From Blastocatellia bacterium (GTDB taxonomy: Bacteria > Acidobacteriota > Blastocatellia > Chloracidobacteriales > JADJPF01), in NCBI GenBank assembly GCA_025057015.1, contig JANWYG010000017.1:257071-321070 (forward strand): a stretch of 64,000 bases of DNA, in the 5' to 3' direction. A program made the position numbers and the translations under genes. The notes beneath the pieces are model-generated. The model was not told where the DNA came from. It was given only the letters and a program-made list of their open reading frames with translations, and made no database searches. The stretch's first letter is position 1. Every line of letters begins with the position of its first letter. Below are positions 22,610-38,300 of the stretch, piece after piece.

Positions 22610-26398
<3,789 letters not shown>

Positions 26399-26454: not shown

Positions 26455-28614
26455 TCAAGTAGTACCCTTAGTCCAACTTTGCATCTTCAGCAACAGCGCA
26501 AGCGGTCCTTGCAATTGTTTTATCAACTCTTTAAGCTCCTCTATACTAAGCAAGAAACTCTGCTCAGAGTTACCACCACTAGCGCCTGTCCGGCTGATTT
26601 TAAACTCTATGGCAGGACTAAGCTCTATATAGTCAGGCAGCCTCCTGGCAACTAGCTCTGCAGGCGCTACTTCTACAAAGTCATGTAAATCTTTGTCACC
26701 TAACACCGGAATCCTTGTAGAAACAGCCTTTATCAGCGCCTTGAACTCTTGTCCACAATAACAACACTTACCGTCCCAGTTACTATTCCACACGTAGATA
26801 TCCATCACCGATAGCCGCTGCTTTTGAGCCCACTCAACTACAGGTTTACCACACATCGGACAAGGTGGAGCTAGACGCTCTACACCACAAAGAGGACAGA
26901 GCGAATCGGTATGACGCAATAGCCCACCACAAGCAAAACACTTTATCACCTTGATCTTCGGCGGAAAATCCTGTTCCTTCTCACCTGCAACTGGTAGAAA
27001 TACAAGTCTAGCCTCCTCAGCAGGCCACATAGGCCGCTTCTGCTGATCCCGTAGCAGGCAATTTAGTGCCGTGTTCATCTCGCTTAAAGCAAGCGTACGC
27101 ACCACAGTTCTGTCAAGAACCTTAACGACTACCGCAGTAGTGCTCTCTGGCACTGCTAGTACGCAATACTGCCCATCATCGCCAATAAACAAGCGCAGTA
27201 TGGAGCATTCCATAGACGCCGAAGTTATAGGATGCACCAAATTGACCGTGTTAGTCTCAGCCGAATAGTCGCTAACTTGAACCCATAGATCGGGTAGGAC
27301 TTGCCCATCAAAATATAGCTCGCCACCTACTATAAAGCCTGATTCCAGAACTTGTGGTATTTCCTCGCTTTTCTCCAAAAAAGGTCCAAAGATGGCTTCC
27401 AGTTCATCTTTGCTAGTCCAAAAACGATTGCAAGCCTCTATGCACGCTTCTCTCAGGTGCTTGACCTCTTCAGGCGTAAGTACCTGCAGTGTGTCGGCAT
27501 CGACAACACGCAAGACTATACGAGTCTGCATCCTCCAATCGTCCATCTTCCGACCCGACTCGCTAACTATCAGATAATTAGAGCTAGCCTGCCTAAACAA
27601 CCAATAAACATTGAAGTCGTGGACATCATTCCCTTGAGGGCTTTTTACGCTAATAATAGGCAGTCCCATTTCTATTCGCTTCTCAGTAATCTGTACCTTA
27701 TCTCCAGCTGTCACGGGAGAAAAATTAAACGACAGATAATGCGTGAAGATAACGCGAGAAAGATCTGCTGGTTGTGGATGCCGTAACCCTACTGTCTTCT
27801 CAAATAACTCAGCTGCTGCAGGCAACAAGCTCATTTGTAACTCGTTTAAAAAATCAGATATGTCTATATACCGCTCTGGCTTGCGTGCAAAAGCCTTCCG
27901 AAATACTCTGTCTAAAGACTCTTTAAACTGCCCACCGTGTTCAGAAATGCTTCTGAACTGCCCAGCCAACTGCCGCTCTACTACCTCACCAGCAAGCATT
28001 CCTTCCGCAAAAAAAGGATTTCTACCGGTAAGCATTTCATAGACGATCGCCGCAAGTGAGTATATGTCTGTCGTGTAGTCTACAGCTTTGCCTTCTATCT
28101 GTTCAGGCGACATGTAGCCGGGGCTGCCAACTACTACCCCTTCAGGAACATTCGACTTAAACCCAGTCAGTATGACATGCTCCTGCTGCCCGGTCAGGAG
28201 CACCCGCACAGGGCACAGATCAGCATGGTAGACTCCTTTACTATGCGCATAACGCAAAGCCCGACCAATCTGCTTAGTTATATGGATGACACGAGCAATG
28301 TCGAGCCTGCCTTCCTTCGCCAGCACTTCCTTCAATGTCAGGCCATCAATAAACGCACTGACATAGTACGGTGTCCCGTTCTCGGTGCCAGTGTCATAGA
28401 TAGCAACAATGTTTGGATGTACAAGCTTACTCATAGCCAATACCTCTGAATGAAACTGCTCTGCAGCATCAGAGGTGCTGTCTATAAGTGCTTTTATCGC
28501 TACTCGCCTGTTTGCAAGATCACGCTGTAGGGCTTCATACAACACGCCACTACGGCTACGTGCAACTACACGCCCTAACAAAAATCGACCGAACACGGTG
28601 TTCTTACCCATCAT
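26455..28614 (-). CDS. Kinase-like protein (predicted pseudokinase) with DUF1292-like modules and zinc ribbons
   Basis: Residues about 8-270 are a Ser/Thr-kinase fold with VAIK Lys41 and an alpha-C Glu57. The catalytic loop reads HADLCPVRV (130-138): Asp132 remains, but the loop Lys is Cys134 and the metal-binding Asn is Arg137. The DFG motif is TGF (150-152). Loss of both metal ligands predicts no normal phosphotransfer. Residues about 320-530 contain two segments resembling DUF1292. From about 559 come zinc-binding pairs: CFAC, CPLC, CPMC and CCYC. It has no membrane segment. It is divergent from the related gene at 28693 and lies upstream of guaB on the same strand. Its role is unknown; it may be an ATP-binding scaffold. 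Confidence 0.8.
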   Translation of the reverse strand: MMGKNTVFGRFLLGRVVARSRSGVLYEALQRDLANRRVAIKALIDSTSDAAEQFHSEVLAMSKLVHPNIVAIYDTGTENGTPYYVSAFIDGLTLKEVLAKEGRLDIARVIHITKQIGRALRYAHSKGVYHADLCPVRVLLTGQQEHVILTGFKSNVPEGVVVGSPGYMSPEQIEGKAVDYTTDIYSLAAIVYEMLTGRNPFFAEGMLAGEVVERQLAGQFRSISEHGGQFKESLDRVFRKAFARKPERYIDISDFLNELQMSLLPAAAELFEKTVGLRHPQPADLSRVIFTHYLSFNFSPVTAGDKVQITEKRIEMGLPIISVKSPQGNDVHDFNVYWLFRQASSNYLIVSESGRKMDDWRMQTRIVLRVVDADTLQVLTPEEVKHLREACIEACNRFWTSKDELEAIFGPFLEKSEEIPQVLESGFIVGGELYFDGQVLPDLWVQVSDYSAETNTVNLVHPITSASMECSILRLFIGDDGQYCVLAVPESTTAVVVKVLDRTVVRTLALSEMNTALNCLLRDQQKRPMWPAEEARLVFLPVAGEKEQDFPPKIKVIKCFACGGLLRHTDSLCPLCGVERLAPPCPMCGKPVVEWAQKQRLSVMDIYVWNSNWDGKCCYCGQEFKALIKAVSTRIPVLGDKDLHDFVEVAPAELVARRLPDYIELSPAIEFKISRTGASGGNSEQSFLLSIEELKELIKQLQGPLALLLKMQSWTKGTT

Positions 28615-28657
28615 TCACCTCTTGGCAAATATGTTCTTCTAATCGGTCTAGAAGGTG

Positions 28658-28665
28658 ATTATAAT
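28658..28665. promoter_or_regulatory. Palindromic -10 candidate between divergent pseudokinase genes
   Basis: ATTATAAT is self-complementary and supplies TATAAT on both strands within the 78-base gap between the starts at 28614 and 28693. No good -35 hexamer is seen on either side, so any promoter would probably depend on an activator. Shared use would make the two genes mutually exclusive or co-regulated. Confidence 0.35.
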
Positions 28666-28692
28666 TCTGTTCTCCTAGTTTGAGATAGAAAC

Positions 28693-30921
28693 ATGCTCCT
28701 ATCACTAGAAGGCTTAGCCTTTCCACATAGTCAGGCACCACACAAGAAACGCACTCTCGTTCCAGGCTTGCCGTTCCTTCCGGCTGAGCTGGGCAGCTTC
28801 GAAGCTAATGTAAAACTTATCAGAGTATGGAGCGAAGCAGACCGATTCTACTGTAGGCTCAAACCACCACATTTCGCAGATTTTATACAGCACATACCAT
28901 ACCTCTCGCCAGTAGCATACGAGAGGATTACAAGTCTTCGACCAGATCTAGAGATACTCTGGATAGGCTCATTTGATTCAAGTACTTGGATGCTGCTCGA
29001 ACGTGAACCCAACGCCGACTCTGAAGAGTACCTACAATACCTCGTAGAGTTGAGAGCACCTGCTGAAGTTCATACGGTTCGCTCTCTGCGTCTAGTAGAT
29101 CTCAAACAAAAATTAGATTCGATAGCTACAAATCAAATTTCGCGAGATGACTGCCAAAGGCACCTAGGCCCTATACACGAACGTGGCAGCCTAGAATACT
29201 ATAAGGATTGTATAAAAGAACGAAGTATCACCCAACACTTATGCATCAAGACCAGCATAGTCACTCAACATTTACAGCCCAACACAGCTAATCCACAAAC
29301 TGAAGTAAAGATATTACGTCACATCAGATCAGCAAGCGACCGTCTAGATATAGAACTTCAATCTCCCTCTTCTCCAGACCTCAAAGAGCACTTTAGAGTT
29401 ATTCAGGTAGTTGAAAGAGAAGGACTTTATCTTCTTCTGTATCCGTATGACCGTACGGAGCAAACAGATATAACCCCACCAAATTACTTGGTAAGACTCA
29501 AAAATTACACCGTCCATACCCTTTCTGATGACGAATTTGACACCGTAGCAGCAGCACTAATAGACTTGCTAGAGACAATTACTCCAGGCAGGCCCTACCA
29601 TCCAACCGACGCCATCGAACCTACTTTACTAGATATCGTCAAAGACGTCCTAGAACAAAGAACACGTACAGGAAGTTTATTGGTTAGCCCAAATAACTTA
29701 CTTAGCTGTCAGGCACCATACGGGCTAACGAATTCAGTACCTGTCAGAAAAAATCTTGCCGATGATAAACCTGGCTCAGGCCTGCAGCACTTGAAGATAA
29801 TTTCCCAGCCTGGCCAGCAGCTGATAGTGCATACAGCAGATACTTCTCCCGAAGGCCCTTTCCTTAGCCTCACAGAACCAAATCAAACGATCGTAGCTTC
29901 AAAAAACGAAAGCTCCTCAGTTCTCTTCGTAGAGCTTATCTTCGAGCATGCTGGGGTAAAATACATAGTCCTTAAGCCACCTTCTTCTCTGAGCGAGCCT
30001 TCAGCCTCTCCGCGCTTTCTACTCAAGCTACATCCAGACGGTATGCTAGAAACGATCACCAACAGCGAGCTTGCTGCAATCAGACCATTGTATGCTGCTA
30101 AGAAAAACTCTTACCCACCTGCAAAGCTACTTGCACAACTGAAGAAACTCTACCCCAAATATTTCGCTAAGGAGCAAGATACACAAGAAATTGACAAAAG
30201 CACTCCGCCTATACGCAAGTATCATCTCAAAAGACTGCTAATTAAAGGTATATCGAGCAGCATATATGAAGCTGAACAGAAAGGCTTAGTTGAACGTAGC
30301 GTAGCTATAAAGCTGCTTGATAAAGACAAAGACTCCGCAATCTTTCAGCTAGAGGTCGCTTTGACAGCAACCTTGTCACACCCACACATAGTAAGCATCT
30401 ATGACTTTGGCGAGCTTGACGGACAACAGTTTTGCGCTATGCCCCTGCTAGAAGGCCAAACCTTGGCCGAGCTGCAAGAAATACCTTTGCGCGCACTAAT
30501 AAAGATAATAGACCAGCTAGCCTCCGCACTTGACTACATACACGAACGAGGAGTGACACACCGCCAAGTGAACCTGCATAAGATAATAGTCGATGAAGAA
30601 TATAATGCTACTTTGCTTGGAGTCAAACTTACGCCACCTGAACAAATCCTGAAAGACAGCCTTCGTCCAGTAGAACGTCACCGACTGCTCGTACTTTCCG
30701 ACATCTTTAACTTAGGTTTTACAGCTTGGATAGCCGTTCTTAAGCATATCAAGCGTCAAGGTAAGTACAGCTGCATATCAGAACTTCCCCTTCCAAGTAA
30801 AATTTGTGCGCTACCTGTGAAACTAGACGAAGTTCTGACCAAAGCCACTGCACCAGTGCCAACGGAAAGGTATCAAACTGCCGGCGAGTTTGCCACAGAC
30901 TTCAAGGATGCCCTCATATGA
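28693..30921 (+). CDS. Protein with three DUF1292-like modules and a C-terminal pseudokinase domain
   Basis: The first roughly 500 of 742 residues contain three similar units (about 30-150, 210-300 and 360-480), each with a 'G-x-Y-x-L-L-x-P' core followed by an Arg/Leu-rich strand and an acidic helix, resembling DUF1292. Residues about 510-735 have a kinase fold with VAIK Lys540, but the catalytic loop is HRQVNLHK (623-630) and the DFG position reads LGV (642-644). Catalytic Asp, loop Lys, Asn and the DFG Asp are all lost, so phosphotransfer is very unlikely. There is no signal peptide. The end overlaps the quinone oxidoreductase (ATGA). Homology between the N-terminal modules and those of the divergent neighbour is my reading, not a computed result. 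Confidence 0.75.
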   Translation: MLLSLEGLAFPHSQAPHKKRTLVPGLPFLPAELGSFEANVKLIRVWSEADRFYCRLKPPHFADFIQHIPYLSPVAYERITSLRPDLEILWIGSFDSSTWMLLEREPNADSEEYLQYLVELRAPAEVHTVRSLRLVDLKQKLDSIATNQISRDDCQRHLGPIHERGSLEYYKDCIKERSITQHLCIKTSIVTQHLQPNTANPQTEVKILRHIRSASDRLDIELQSPSSPDLKEHFRVIQVVEREGLYLLLYPYDRTEQTDITPPNYLVRLKNYTVHTLSDDEFDTVAAALIDLLETITPGRPYHPTDAIEPTLLDIVKDVLEQRTRTGSLLVSPNNLLSCQAPYGLTNSVPVRKNLADDKPGSGLQHLKIISQPGQQLIVHTADTSPEGPFLSLTEPNQTIVASKNESSSVLFVELIFEHAGVKYIVLKPPSSLSEPSASPRFLLKLHPDGMLETITNSELAAIRPLYAAKKNSYPPAKLLAQLKKLYPKYFAKEQDTQEIDKSTPPIRKYHLKRLLIKGISSSIYEAEQKGLVERSVAIKLLDKDKDSAIFQLEVALTATLSHPHIVSIYDFGELDGQQFCAMPLLEGQTLAELQEIPLRALIKIIDQLASALDYIHERGVTHRQVNLHKIIVDEEYNATLLGVKLTPPEQILKDSLRPVERHRLLVLSDIFNLGFTAWIAVLKHIKRQGKYSCISELPLPSKICALPVKLDEVLTKATAPVPTERYQTAGEFATDFKDALI

Positions 30922-31892
30922 AAGCCCTACTCGTAGATGATTCAACTAGACAACTATATGAAGGCGACGTTGATATGCCGGAAGTAGGTCCTGACGATCT
31001 GCTGGTAAAAGTGAAAGCTACGGCAGTAAACCGCGCCGATCTATTACAGAAGCGAGGCCTATACCCTCCGCCTAAAGGTGCCTCGCCTGTGTTAGGACTA
31101 GAATGTGCTGGAACGATAGAAAAACTGGGAGCTAATGTCGATTGCTATAGCTACAAACAAGGAGACCGTATCTGTGCCCTACTGCCTGGCGGAGGATACG
31201 CTCAGTATGTAGCTGTGCCAGCTAAGATGGCAATGCGCGTGCCGGATAACCTAAGCATAGAAGAAGCAGCCGCTATACCAGAAGTGTTCCTAACTGCATA
31301 CCTTGCCGTAGTCTACTACGGCAAGCTCAAACCTTCCCAAACGGCTCTCATACATGCTGGAGCAAGTGGCGTTGGAACAGCAGCTATACAAATAGTAAAC
31401 GAACTAGGAGCGCAGGCTATCGTCACTACGAGCAAAGAAAAGCAGCCTGCCTGCCTAAAGCTTGGCGCCTCTGCCGCTTACGATAGAGGTAATTTCAGAA
31501 AACAAGTAGAAGAGTTTACCGCAAGACGGGGAGTCGACCTAATAATTGACCCCGTAGGAGCTGCATATTGGGAAGACAACCTGTCTCTACTGGCTACAGA
31601 TGGCAAACTAATTCTGCTAGCTACCATGGGCGGCAGAAAAGCTCCCAGCACTGATCTTGCTGTGTTGCTTACAAAGCGACTACAGATAATAGCAACGACG
31701 CTAAGACATAGACCTCTCGAAGAAAAGATATTATTTACAAGAGCTTTTTGGGAATTCGCCGAAGAACGCTTTACCAACGGTCGATTCAGACCCGTCATAG
31801 ACAGCATTTACGAATGGCACGAAGCAAACTCCGCTCATCAACGCATGGAAGCCAATCTGAACATAGGTAAGATAGTCATCCGCGTTCCCTAA
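30918..31892 (+). CDS. PIG3-type NAD(P)H quinone oxidoreductase
   Basis: This zinc-free medium-chain dehydrogenase has 324 residues. The N-terminal segment AVNRADLLQKRGLYPPPKGAS is characteristic of the PIG3/TP53I3 group, and the Rossmann motif is HAGASGVGTAAIQ. It would reduce quinones or enones with NADPH. The frame is open from 30804, but ATG 30918 overlaps the preceding stop as ATGA and gives the family N-terminus MKALLVDD. It is probably co-transcribed with the pseudokinase gene; its tail overlaps the P450 gene by 17 bases. Confidence 0.9.
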   Translation: MKALLVDDSTRQLYEGDVDMPEVGPDDLLVKVKATAVNRADLLQKRGLYPPPKGASPVLGLECAGTIEKLGANVDCYSYKQGDRICALLPGGGYAQYVAVPAKMAMRVPDNLSIEEAAAIPEVFLTAYLAVVYYGKLKPSQTALIHAGASGVGTAAIQIVNELGAQAIVTTSKEKQPACLKLGASAAYDRGNFRKQVEEFTARRGVDLIIDPVGAAYWEDNLSLLATDGKLILLATMGGRKAPSTDLAVLLTKRLQIIATTLRHRPLEEKILFTRAFWEFAEERFTNGRFRPVIDSIYEWHEANSAHQRMEANLNIGKIVIRVP

Positions 31893-35687: not shown

Positions 35688-38300
35688 ATGAAAGAATGCA
35701 TATCCTGCTTCTGCTGCTATGACGACGAGGCAAGCATTTGCCTAATTGATGGAGGAGAGCTACGCATAGGACTCCCAGGTAAACGCCTGCTTGACGAACG
35801 CTACCGAGTAGACAAACTCATAGCTCGTGGGCGACTGGGCAACATTTACAAAGCAACACAAGTAGAACTAGACCGCACGATAGCCATAAAAGTGTTGCAT
35901 CCCGCTTTAGTGCAGAGCGAAATCGCGCGAGAACGCTTTCGACGCGAAGCCCTAGCAACAGCAGCCCTCAATCATCCTGCAATCATCACCGTGCTTGACT
36001 TCGGCATAACAACCACAGGCCTCGTCTACCTGGTGACGGAATTCTTAGAAGGTGAGAGTCTAGATATCAAACTCTTACGCTTTAAGCGACTTGATATCCC
36101 TGAAGCCGTGCGCATAGCGATAGAAGTATGCGAAGCCCTACAGCACGCCCACGACAATAACGCCATACATAGAAACCTAAAACCTTCAAATGTCTTCCTG
36201 CTCGAAGGTAAACCCGTAGAGAAAGTAAAACTAATCGACTTCGGACTAGTCAAGTTGACCACAGATTCGCTACGTAGCATCACATCCGGGGCACTGATAG
36301 GCTCGCTTGAGTATTGCGCTCCAGAACAGTGTGAACCAGAAGCAAATGTTGACCACCGCAGCGATATCTACTCACTAGGAACGATACTTTACCAAATGTT
36401 GACCGGAACGCTGCCCTACAAAGCTGCAAACAAAACCGAACTTATCCGCAAAAAGCTTAGCCAAAAACCTCCACCACCACATTTGATAGTCTTCGATATC
36501 CCGCCAGAGCTAGAGAAGATAGTGCTCAAAAGTCTGGAGATCGATCCAGAACAGCGTTACAGCAGCGCTATGCAGATGGCCGAAGCACTAAGCCAAGTAC
36601 CCCGCAAAGCTACGCGACCAACTATAGGCCTATTTACTGATAGCGCCAAACTCGCTGAACAGTTACGTGCACGGCTACAAGCCCGCTTGCAACCCCAACT
36701 GAGAAACTCACCACTCCTCTCACGCAGACGAGAACTCGACCGGCTAGAATTCTACTTCGAGCAAGTAAATGAAGGACGCTCGGTCGCAGTAGCCATCATA
36801 GGTTCTCCTGGCATAGGCAAGTCGCGGCTGCTCGAGGAATTTCGTAAAACTAAACTCAACGAGCAGTGTTGTCTACTCAGCGGTGAATTTGACGGTAAAT
36901 CTGACCTGCTTGAAATAGGACAACCGAAAAAGCTCAAAGAGTTTTTCTCCGACGATACAGAACTCACTGCAAAGCTAAACGAACCGTTTTCTGAAGCAAT
37001 TTTTTCTGCACTTTCGACAAAACTGCTTGACTTATCTCAACGTCTCCCCGTCGTCTTACTTTTGGATAAAATTGAGCTTGCTGACCCGGTAAGTCTAGAA
37101 TTTTTGCTCTACCTGGTTGGCAAAGCATCCTCCGATAGATTGCTGCTCGTGCTTGCAGCTGACCTACAGGAAGTAGTTTCCTACAGCTCGAAAATTTCCA
37201 GATGGCTTGCTAGGCTCTCATCGCTAAGACCACTACAAACTATCGAGCTACAGCCAATTTCTGACGTCGACTTTCCCGAATTCATACAGCATATTTGTGG
37301 TAGCTTGGAGATGCCTGATCCAGCAACCGAGCTTGAAAAGTTATATTACGCTACAGAAGGTAATCCGGCACAGGTTTACAACCTGCTCAGCGAGCTGATA
37401 AGCCGACAGAGCCTGATTTGGAATGGACAAAGCTGGATTTACAAAGCCGAAAAGCTGCCTATACCACGTGCTACTACTCAGCTCCTAGAACGCCAGCTAA
37501 AGTATTTGTCTACTTTTACGCGCAGAATTCTAGAACTAGCTTCCGTGCTAGGTAACAAGTTTGGTTTCGAAGCACTATCAAGGTTCGCGCAAGTGAGCGA
37601 GTCCAACCTCATAGATGCTATAGACGAGCTGTTATCATACCGGCTGATAGAAGAAAGCGACAAGATAGGCGGTGACGAAGGCTACAAACTAAGCAATACG
37701 ATGCTACAACAGTACTTGTATGAAAGCTTCTCAGAAGAACGAAGGCAACAGCTACACCTGGAAGCAGCCCGTGTATACCAAGAGATAGACGAAGCCGGCG
37801 AGCTATACGATTTCATAGCGCGTCACCTGGAACTTGCAGGAAAATACGCAGAAAGTTTCAGCAGCTACGTTGCTGCAACAAAATCCTCTTGGCGAGAAGG
37901 TGAGCTACAGCGCGCACGCTCATACTTGCTCAAAGCCAAAACCATACTTGCCAGGCTCGATATCCTCAAAGCGGACGTAGGCAGCAAAGTAGATTTGATA
38001 GACGTCTACTGTGATTATCTAATGCTTGCCGTCGAACTGAAGGCCTACGAACACCACTACGAGGCAGAGCAACTACTCGAACAGGCTCTTCAGTTGGCTC
38101 ACTCTTACAACGAACCTTATCTCGTAGCTCGTTCGCTGGTAGCTCTTGGACACTACCAGCAGACTAGAGGTGAGCTCGATCGCGCCATCGGTTACTTTGA
38201 GCACGCTCTTGAATTATATCAACAGATCGGCAACACGCAGCGTACCCAAGTACTGATCGAAAAACTAGACTTCCTACGTAAACGCCTACCACCTAAGTAA
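35688..38300 (+). CDS. Kinase-like (HRN) / ATPase / TPR signalling protein
   Basis: The N-terminus (MKECISCFCC, then SIC) is a degenerate zinc ribbon of the type that opens many acidobacterial kinases. Residues about 38-300 are a Ser/Thr-kinase domain with AIK Lys68, Asn168 and an intact DFG (184-186), but the catalytic loop is HRNLKPSN (161-168): Asn163 replaces the catalytic Asp, as in human HER3. ATP and metal binding may be kept while phosphotransfer is weak or absent. An AAA_16-type ATPase follows, with Walker A GSPGIGKS at 372-379 and LLLDKIE as Walker B. The last 170 residues are TPR-like. The architecture resembles PknK-type regulators. It is divergent from the RsbW-like gene. Confidence 0.85.
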   Translation: MKECISCFCCYDDEASICLIDGGELRIGLPGKRLLDERYRVDKLIARGRLGNIYKATQVELDRTIAIKVLHPALVQSEIARERFRREALATAALNHPAIITVLDFGITTTGLVYLVTEFLEGESLDIKLLRFKRLDIPEAVRIAIEVCEALQHAHDNNAIHRNLKPSNVFLLEGKPVEKVKLIDFGLVKLTTDSLRSITSGALIGSLEYCAPEQCEPEANVDHRSDIYSLGTILYQMLTGTLPYKAANKTELIRKKLSQKPPPPHLIVFDIPPELEKIVLKSLEIDPEQRYSSAMQMAEALSQVPRKATRPTIGLFTDSAKLAEQLRARLQARLQPQLRNSPLLSRRRELDRLEFYFEQVNEGRSVAVAIIGSPGIGKSRLLEEFRKTKLNEQCCLLSGEFDGKSDLLEIGQPKKLKEFFSDDTELTAKLNEPFSEAIFSALSTKLLDLSQRLPVVLLLDKIELADPVSLEFLLYLVGKASSDRLLLVLAADLQEVVSYSSKISRWLARLSSLRPLQTIELQPISDVDFPEFIQHICGSLEMPDPATELEKLYYATEGNPAQVYNLLSELISRQSLIWNGQSWIYKAEKLPIPRATTQLLERQLKYLSTFTRRILELASVLGNKFGFEALSRFAQVSESNLIDAIDELLSYRLIEESDKIGGDEGYKLSNTMLQQYLYESFSEERRQQLHLEAARVYQEIDEAGELYDFIARHLELAGKYAESFSSYVAATKSSWREGELQRARSYLLKAKTILARLDILKADVGSKVDLIDVYCDYLMLAVELKAYEHHYEAEQLLEQALQLAHSYNEPYLVARSLVALGHYQQTRGELDRAIGYFEHALELYQQIGNTQRTQVLIEKLDFLRKRLPPK

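Follow-up and report, generated by a model that had tools for sequence, protein, structure and literature searches.

Bacterial pseudokinases are largely unexplored experimentally, according to a 2025 review (PMC12599244). Five of the families described there, namely ActPs3/MviN, GLW, CP1, DYD and DLHK, share degenerate catalytic motifs with the two proteins presented here, A and B; the short activation loop of ActPs3 also recurs, and the positive charge in the pocket is reminiscent of the DLHK pseudokinases, for which metal-independent nucleotide binding, reported for ULK4, has been proposed. The VAIK lysine, replaced in the review's descriptions of ActPs3, GLW, DYD and DLHK, is kept in A and B, where the DFG position reads GFK and GVK and the accessory domains are different. 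The COG3899-linked CP1 family was set aside as well, there being no AAA-type match in either protein at E up to 1 in libraries that do not include COG3899. On these stated features A and B fit none of the five families, and the available text of the review makes no mention of Acidobacteria. Among solved structures, the best matches are Ser/Thr kinases of the PknB/StkP type (PknB, StkP and PknA for A; PknE and StkP for B), which share the kinase fold; A and B differ from them in lacking the metal-binding Asn and the DFG Asp, in their short activation segments, and in that no PASTA domain was matched. PADLOC/NCBIfam matches to the anti-phage kinases PD-T4-6 and MADS MAD6 cover the kinase domain, the MAD6 score being far below its cut-off.

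A and B are encoded in a 64,000-nucleotide stretch of contig JANWYG010000017.1 (hereafter the window) from a Blastocatellia bacterium whose genome spans 3.33 Mb and whose family-level relative is an acidobacterium. The only two of 54 compared kinase loci in this kinase-rich genome to lack the metal-binding residues are related neighbours that share a private module. Our most likely reading, which we hold with roughly even confidence, is that A and B are lineage-specific paralogous pseudokinases that act jointly as a non-catalytic regulatory scaffold; if so, they would offer a compact, testable case of bacterial pseudokinase regulation, as well as a new domain family to name. Both have a homologue (A2 and B2) in one other genome, JACQZQ01, which belongs to the same family and a different genus. 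The genes diverge from a 78-bp gap, and the open reading frames and coordinates given by an earlier sequence-only reading of the window were verified:

26455..28614, minus strand: gene A, 719 aa; predicted pseudokinase, two modules, zinc-ribbon-like region and conserved C-terminal segment (open reading frame, Pfam Pkinase, homologue A2)
27826..28614, minus strand: A kinase domain, residues 1-263 (alignment; K41, HADLCPVR 130-137, GFK 151-153)
27415..27768, minus strand: A module 1, about residues 283-400 (profile comparisons and module search)
26980..27348, minus strand: A module 2, about residues 423-545, the faintest of the five copies (phmmer against the A2 module; nine-row profile)
26740..26946, minus strand: A zinc-ribbon-like region, residues 557-625 (Cys pairs CFAC, CPLC, CPMC, CCYC)
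26458..26727, minus strand: A C-terminal segment, residues 630-719 (conservation in A2)
28615..28692, no strand: 78-bp divergent intergenic region (sequence between the A and B reading frames)
28693..30921, plus strand: gene B, 742 aa; a predicted pseudokinase preceded by three modules (open reading frame, homologue B2)
28750..29142, plus strand: B module 1, about residues 20-150 (profile comparisons)
29233..29607, plus strand: B module 2, about residues 181-305 (profile comparisons; sub-threshold DUF1292 match)
29758..30132, plus strand: B module 3, about residues 356-480 (profile comparisons; structure model)
30211..30918, plus strand: B kinase domain, residues 507-742 (alignment; K540, HRQVNLHK 623-630, GVK 643-645)

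The kinase fold is N-terminal in A (Pfam Pkinase E=3.5e-31, 109 bits) and C-terminal in B (E=2.6e-13, 50.4 bits; cut-off 31.7). Both domains were aligned with 52 other loci of the host genome picked by similarity to A, which limits the set to kinase loci close enough to match A. The VAIK Lys, the catalytic-loop Asn and the DFG Asp are kept in all 52, and the HRD Asp in 51. The VAIK Lys is likewise present in A and B, and their catalytic loops do read HADLCPVR and HRQVNLHK, as had been proposed. The earlier claim of destroyed catalysis stands for the Asn and the DFG Asp, which are lost from both proteins, and has to be tempered for A, which retains the HRD Asp (D132) while losing the catalytic-loop Lys; only in B is the HRD Asp gone too. 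Loss of DFG had been read as TGF and LGV, which is one residue off: the GFK of A2 aligns with DFG free of gaps, and together with the profile alignment this fixes the register, giving A a GFK and B a GVK at that position. The glycine loop is degraded in both. From DFG to APE there are 21 residues in A, compared with a median of 33 in the 52 other loci, and the activation segment of B is almost deleted (16 residues as aligned, APE itself being doubtful); in A, B, A2 and the first kinase of B2 these segments all come to 16-21 residues as aligned. Basic residues take the place of the metal-binding Asn and of the DFG glycine, R137 and K153 in A and K630 and K645 in B.

Neither protein thus has the HRD Asp, catalytic-loop Asn and DFG Asp that together mark an active kinase, and on sequence grounds both are pseudokinases. 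The degeneracy is no sequencing artefact, since it is seen again in the homologues of another genus: A2 has GFK, a catalytic-loop Lys changed to Asn and an alpha-C Glu changed to Gln, and the first kinase of B2 has HADISPLK and DFE. Some kinases without the canonical residues are nevertheless active, and as A keeps its HRD Asp and Lys, some catalysis by A may remain. More broadly, A, B or both could be unconventional active enzymes, with another metal arrangement or as pseudokinase-fold transferases. The VAIK Lys of both proteins, the HRD Asp of A, and the HRD Asp, catalytic-loop Asn and glycine loop that A2 keeps would all fit such an activity, as would the precedents of SelO, which AMPylates, and SidJ, which glutamylates, reviewed in PMC12599244; we consider it unlikely, however, given the loss of both metal ligands in A and B, of the HRD Asp in B, the short activation segments and the degraded glycine loops.

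Beyond the kinase domain, the two proteins are built from the same repeated module, two copies following the kinase in A and three preceding it in B. When profiles of the A modules and of the B modules were built separately and compared, hhalign gave a probability of 95.8 and a score of 49.5, against 6.7 for the best of 100 column shuffles and about 1 for reversed profiles; the pairwise signal comes mostly from A module 1 compared with B module 3. The repeated segments claimed earlier are therefore real, and by sequence comparison homologous between the two proteins. A profile of nine rows finds all five A and B copies at E values of 4e-25 to 3e-35, those rows being in the query. A module 2 is the faintest: against the B modules its single-sequence hhalign score was not above shuffles, it matches the A2 module at 1.5e-3 (phmmer, among 11 sequences), and the nine-row profile that recovers it includes it as a row. 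Used as queries against 58 related genomes, the nine modules returned the five copies in A and B, four in A2 and B2, and two marginal matches in other genomes (E 0.03 and 0.09), so that, among the 58, confident matches are confined to the A and B proteins of two genomes.

An AlphaFold model of the nine-row alignment, for B module 3, consists of six strands plus one helix (pLDDT 70, pTM 0.67); since pooling the modules presupposes their homology, it is no independent proof of it. The predicted fold of B residues 1-479, made from two sequences, is poor (pLDDT 39.7), and a strand-strand-strand-strand-helix pattern that seems to recur three times within it is only suggestive. Foldseek of the module model against PDB and viral models gave no match at E<=0.001, and when the model was compared for likeness to an SH3/Tudor-like barrel the best VIA-align hit (Z 3.3) was an unrelated carbohydrate-binding module, with Tudor entries at Z of about 2.0-2.4; searches of this kind without a match do not show that the fold is new. 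The top viral structural match, a protein of Bacillus phage SP-15, was discarded, there being no DUF1292 match in that phage. The modules had been described as DUF1292-like, and their order of motifs is similar to that of DUF1292 (PF06949, Bacillus YrzB type), which leaves a suggestive resemblance, while membership of the family is not established. B module 2 reaches 16.7 bits (E=0.013) against a Pfam cut-off of 24, two of the nine modules match at best with E 0.028, and in a scan of the whole genome B module 2 was the only match at E up to 10 (15.5 bits), every one of these below the cut-off. Compared with DUF1292 proteins of other acidobacteria, the module profile scored 11.65 over 87 columns in hhalign, with a probability of 0.93% and a best shuffle of 4.9.

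The zinc ribbons ascribed to A hold up as zinc-ribbon-like Cys motifs, with a pattern conserved in A2 and sub-threshold matches to DZR and DZR_2. The C-terminal segment that follows (residues 630-719) matched no known family, and its similarity to that of the JACQZQ01 homologue is 4e-10 among 11 sequences.

A kinase tree (FastTree, 100 bootstraps) was built from the kinases of the host genome and chosen domains of JACQZQ01, most kinases of which were left out. A, A2, B and the first kinase of B2 form a clade within the kinases of the host genome in 83 of 100 bootstraps, with SH-like support of 0.93-0.99 in three samplings, which supports a common origin of the A and B kinase domains. Within the clade the branches are long, and the pairing of A with A2 is not recovered (2/100) and that of B with the first kinase of B2 only weakly (26/100), so the orthology of A with A2 and of B with B2 rests on architecture and full-length similarity. 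Probably, a kinase fold and a small, private beta-plus-helix module were fused in a single ancestor, and both A and B would descend from it.

In a sample of 396 genomes of the phylum, the N-terminal half of B was found in two, the host genome and JACQZQ01, and the C-terminal half of A has strong matches in the same two only; four further genomes match the latter at E of about 0.005-0.008, over a zinc-ribbon stretch of 30-40 residues only. The other 394 genomes hold no confident homologue of A or B, and the family's two further genomes, both incomplete, yielded neither protein. A search of genome contigs returned no match for A and only the already known relative for B. In the genomes searched, A and B were thus found or missed jointly. 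A2 (600 aa) is a full-length homologue of A at 32% identity, with one module instead of two; B2 (1123 aa) is a full-length homologue of B at about 32% identity and has the same order of domains followed by a second, C-terminal kinase that looks intact (AFK, HGDLKPEN, DLG).

This same pattern bears on whether A and B could be decaying kinase genes, functionless and on the way to loss. They are lineage-restricted and fast-evolving, and their absence from the two incomplete genomes of the family would agree with decay; against this, the reading frames are long and intact in both genera although identity is only about 32%, and the modules and the zinc-ribbon cysteines are conserved, which implies selection and makes decay highly improbable.

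The neighbours of A and B, as far as the adjoining genes were inspected, are metabolic. An IMP dehydrogenase gene (24928-26379, minus strand) follows A on the same strand after 75 bp. At the end of B (30915-30925), its stop codon and the first codon of a quinone oxidoreductase-like gene overlap as ATGA, which suggests translational coupling. A consensus scan listed no promoter-like site in the 78-bp gap. Just one other searched genome carries both proteins, and there A2 and B2 lie on different contigs among neighbours that differ from those of the host genome; the divergent arrangement is thus not conserved, and a shared promoter is weak evidence of partnership. The two might instead be independent pseudokinases that share a module and serve separate pathways, their adjacency being accidental or left over from a tandem duplication. 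The separate contigs and differing neighbours in JACQZQ01 fit this explanation, as do the IMP dehydrogenase gene after A and the oxidoreductase-like gene overlapping B, with which each could have its own operon. We nonetheless find it rather doubtful, because A and B occur in the same two genomes only, share a private module and have kinase domains that group together.

Co-occurrence and the private module argue for shared work of A and B, and the joint scaffold that we prefer also accommodates differently ordered products of the same parts, which the sequence-only reading had rightly recognised. Its suggestion of a co-evolved signalling or scaffolding pair fits as well, resting as it does on two genomes and on comparisons of sequence. 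In such a scaffold, the modules may bind one another or a ligand that they have in common, the zinc-ribbon tail of A may contact the output, and the kinase folds would act as docking domains that can be switched. These might hold nucleotide without Mg2+, as the basic residues at the Asn and DFG-glycine positions would suit the metal-independent binding proposed for DLHK pseudokinases and reported for ULK4 in PMC12599244. The pseudokinase of B2 directly precedes the intact-looking kinase, which suggests that the B pseudokinase regulates a kinase, in cis in JACQZQ01 and perhaps in trans, on the many other kinases, in the host genome. In eukaryotic JAK kinases, too, a pseudokinase is followed by a kinase; the likeness to B2 is an analogy, with no homology implied beyond the kinase fold. 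Taken with all of its parts, namely a two-protein complex of duplicated pseudokinases with a private domain, nucleotide held free of metal and a kinase regulated by B in cis or in trans, the proposal is a long shot.

Some further observations concern the kinases of the two genomes. In the 6.4 Mb genome of JACQZQ01, protein A has 157 matches, nearly all of them in the kinase domain, which amounts to a very large set of Ser/Thr kinases. A2 is preceded there, about 110 bp away and on the same strand, by a sigma-70 family factor gene (L016:7552-8136). In the window itself, the gene at 35688-38300 (plus strand) encodes the sole kinase with a changed HRD Asp among the 52 compared loci; HRN replaces HRD, an AAA_16 ATPase domain and TPR repeats follow, and the layout resembles that of the COG3899-linked CP1 pseudokinase family as described in PMC12599244.
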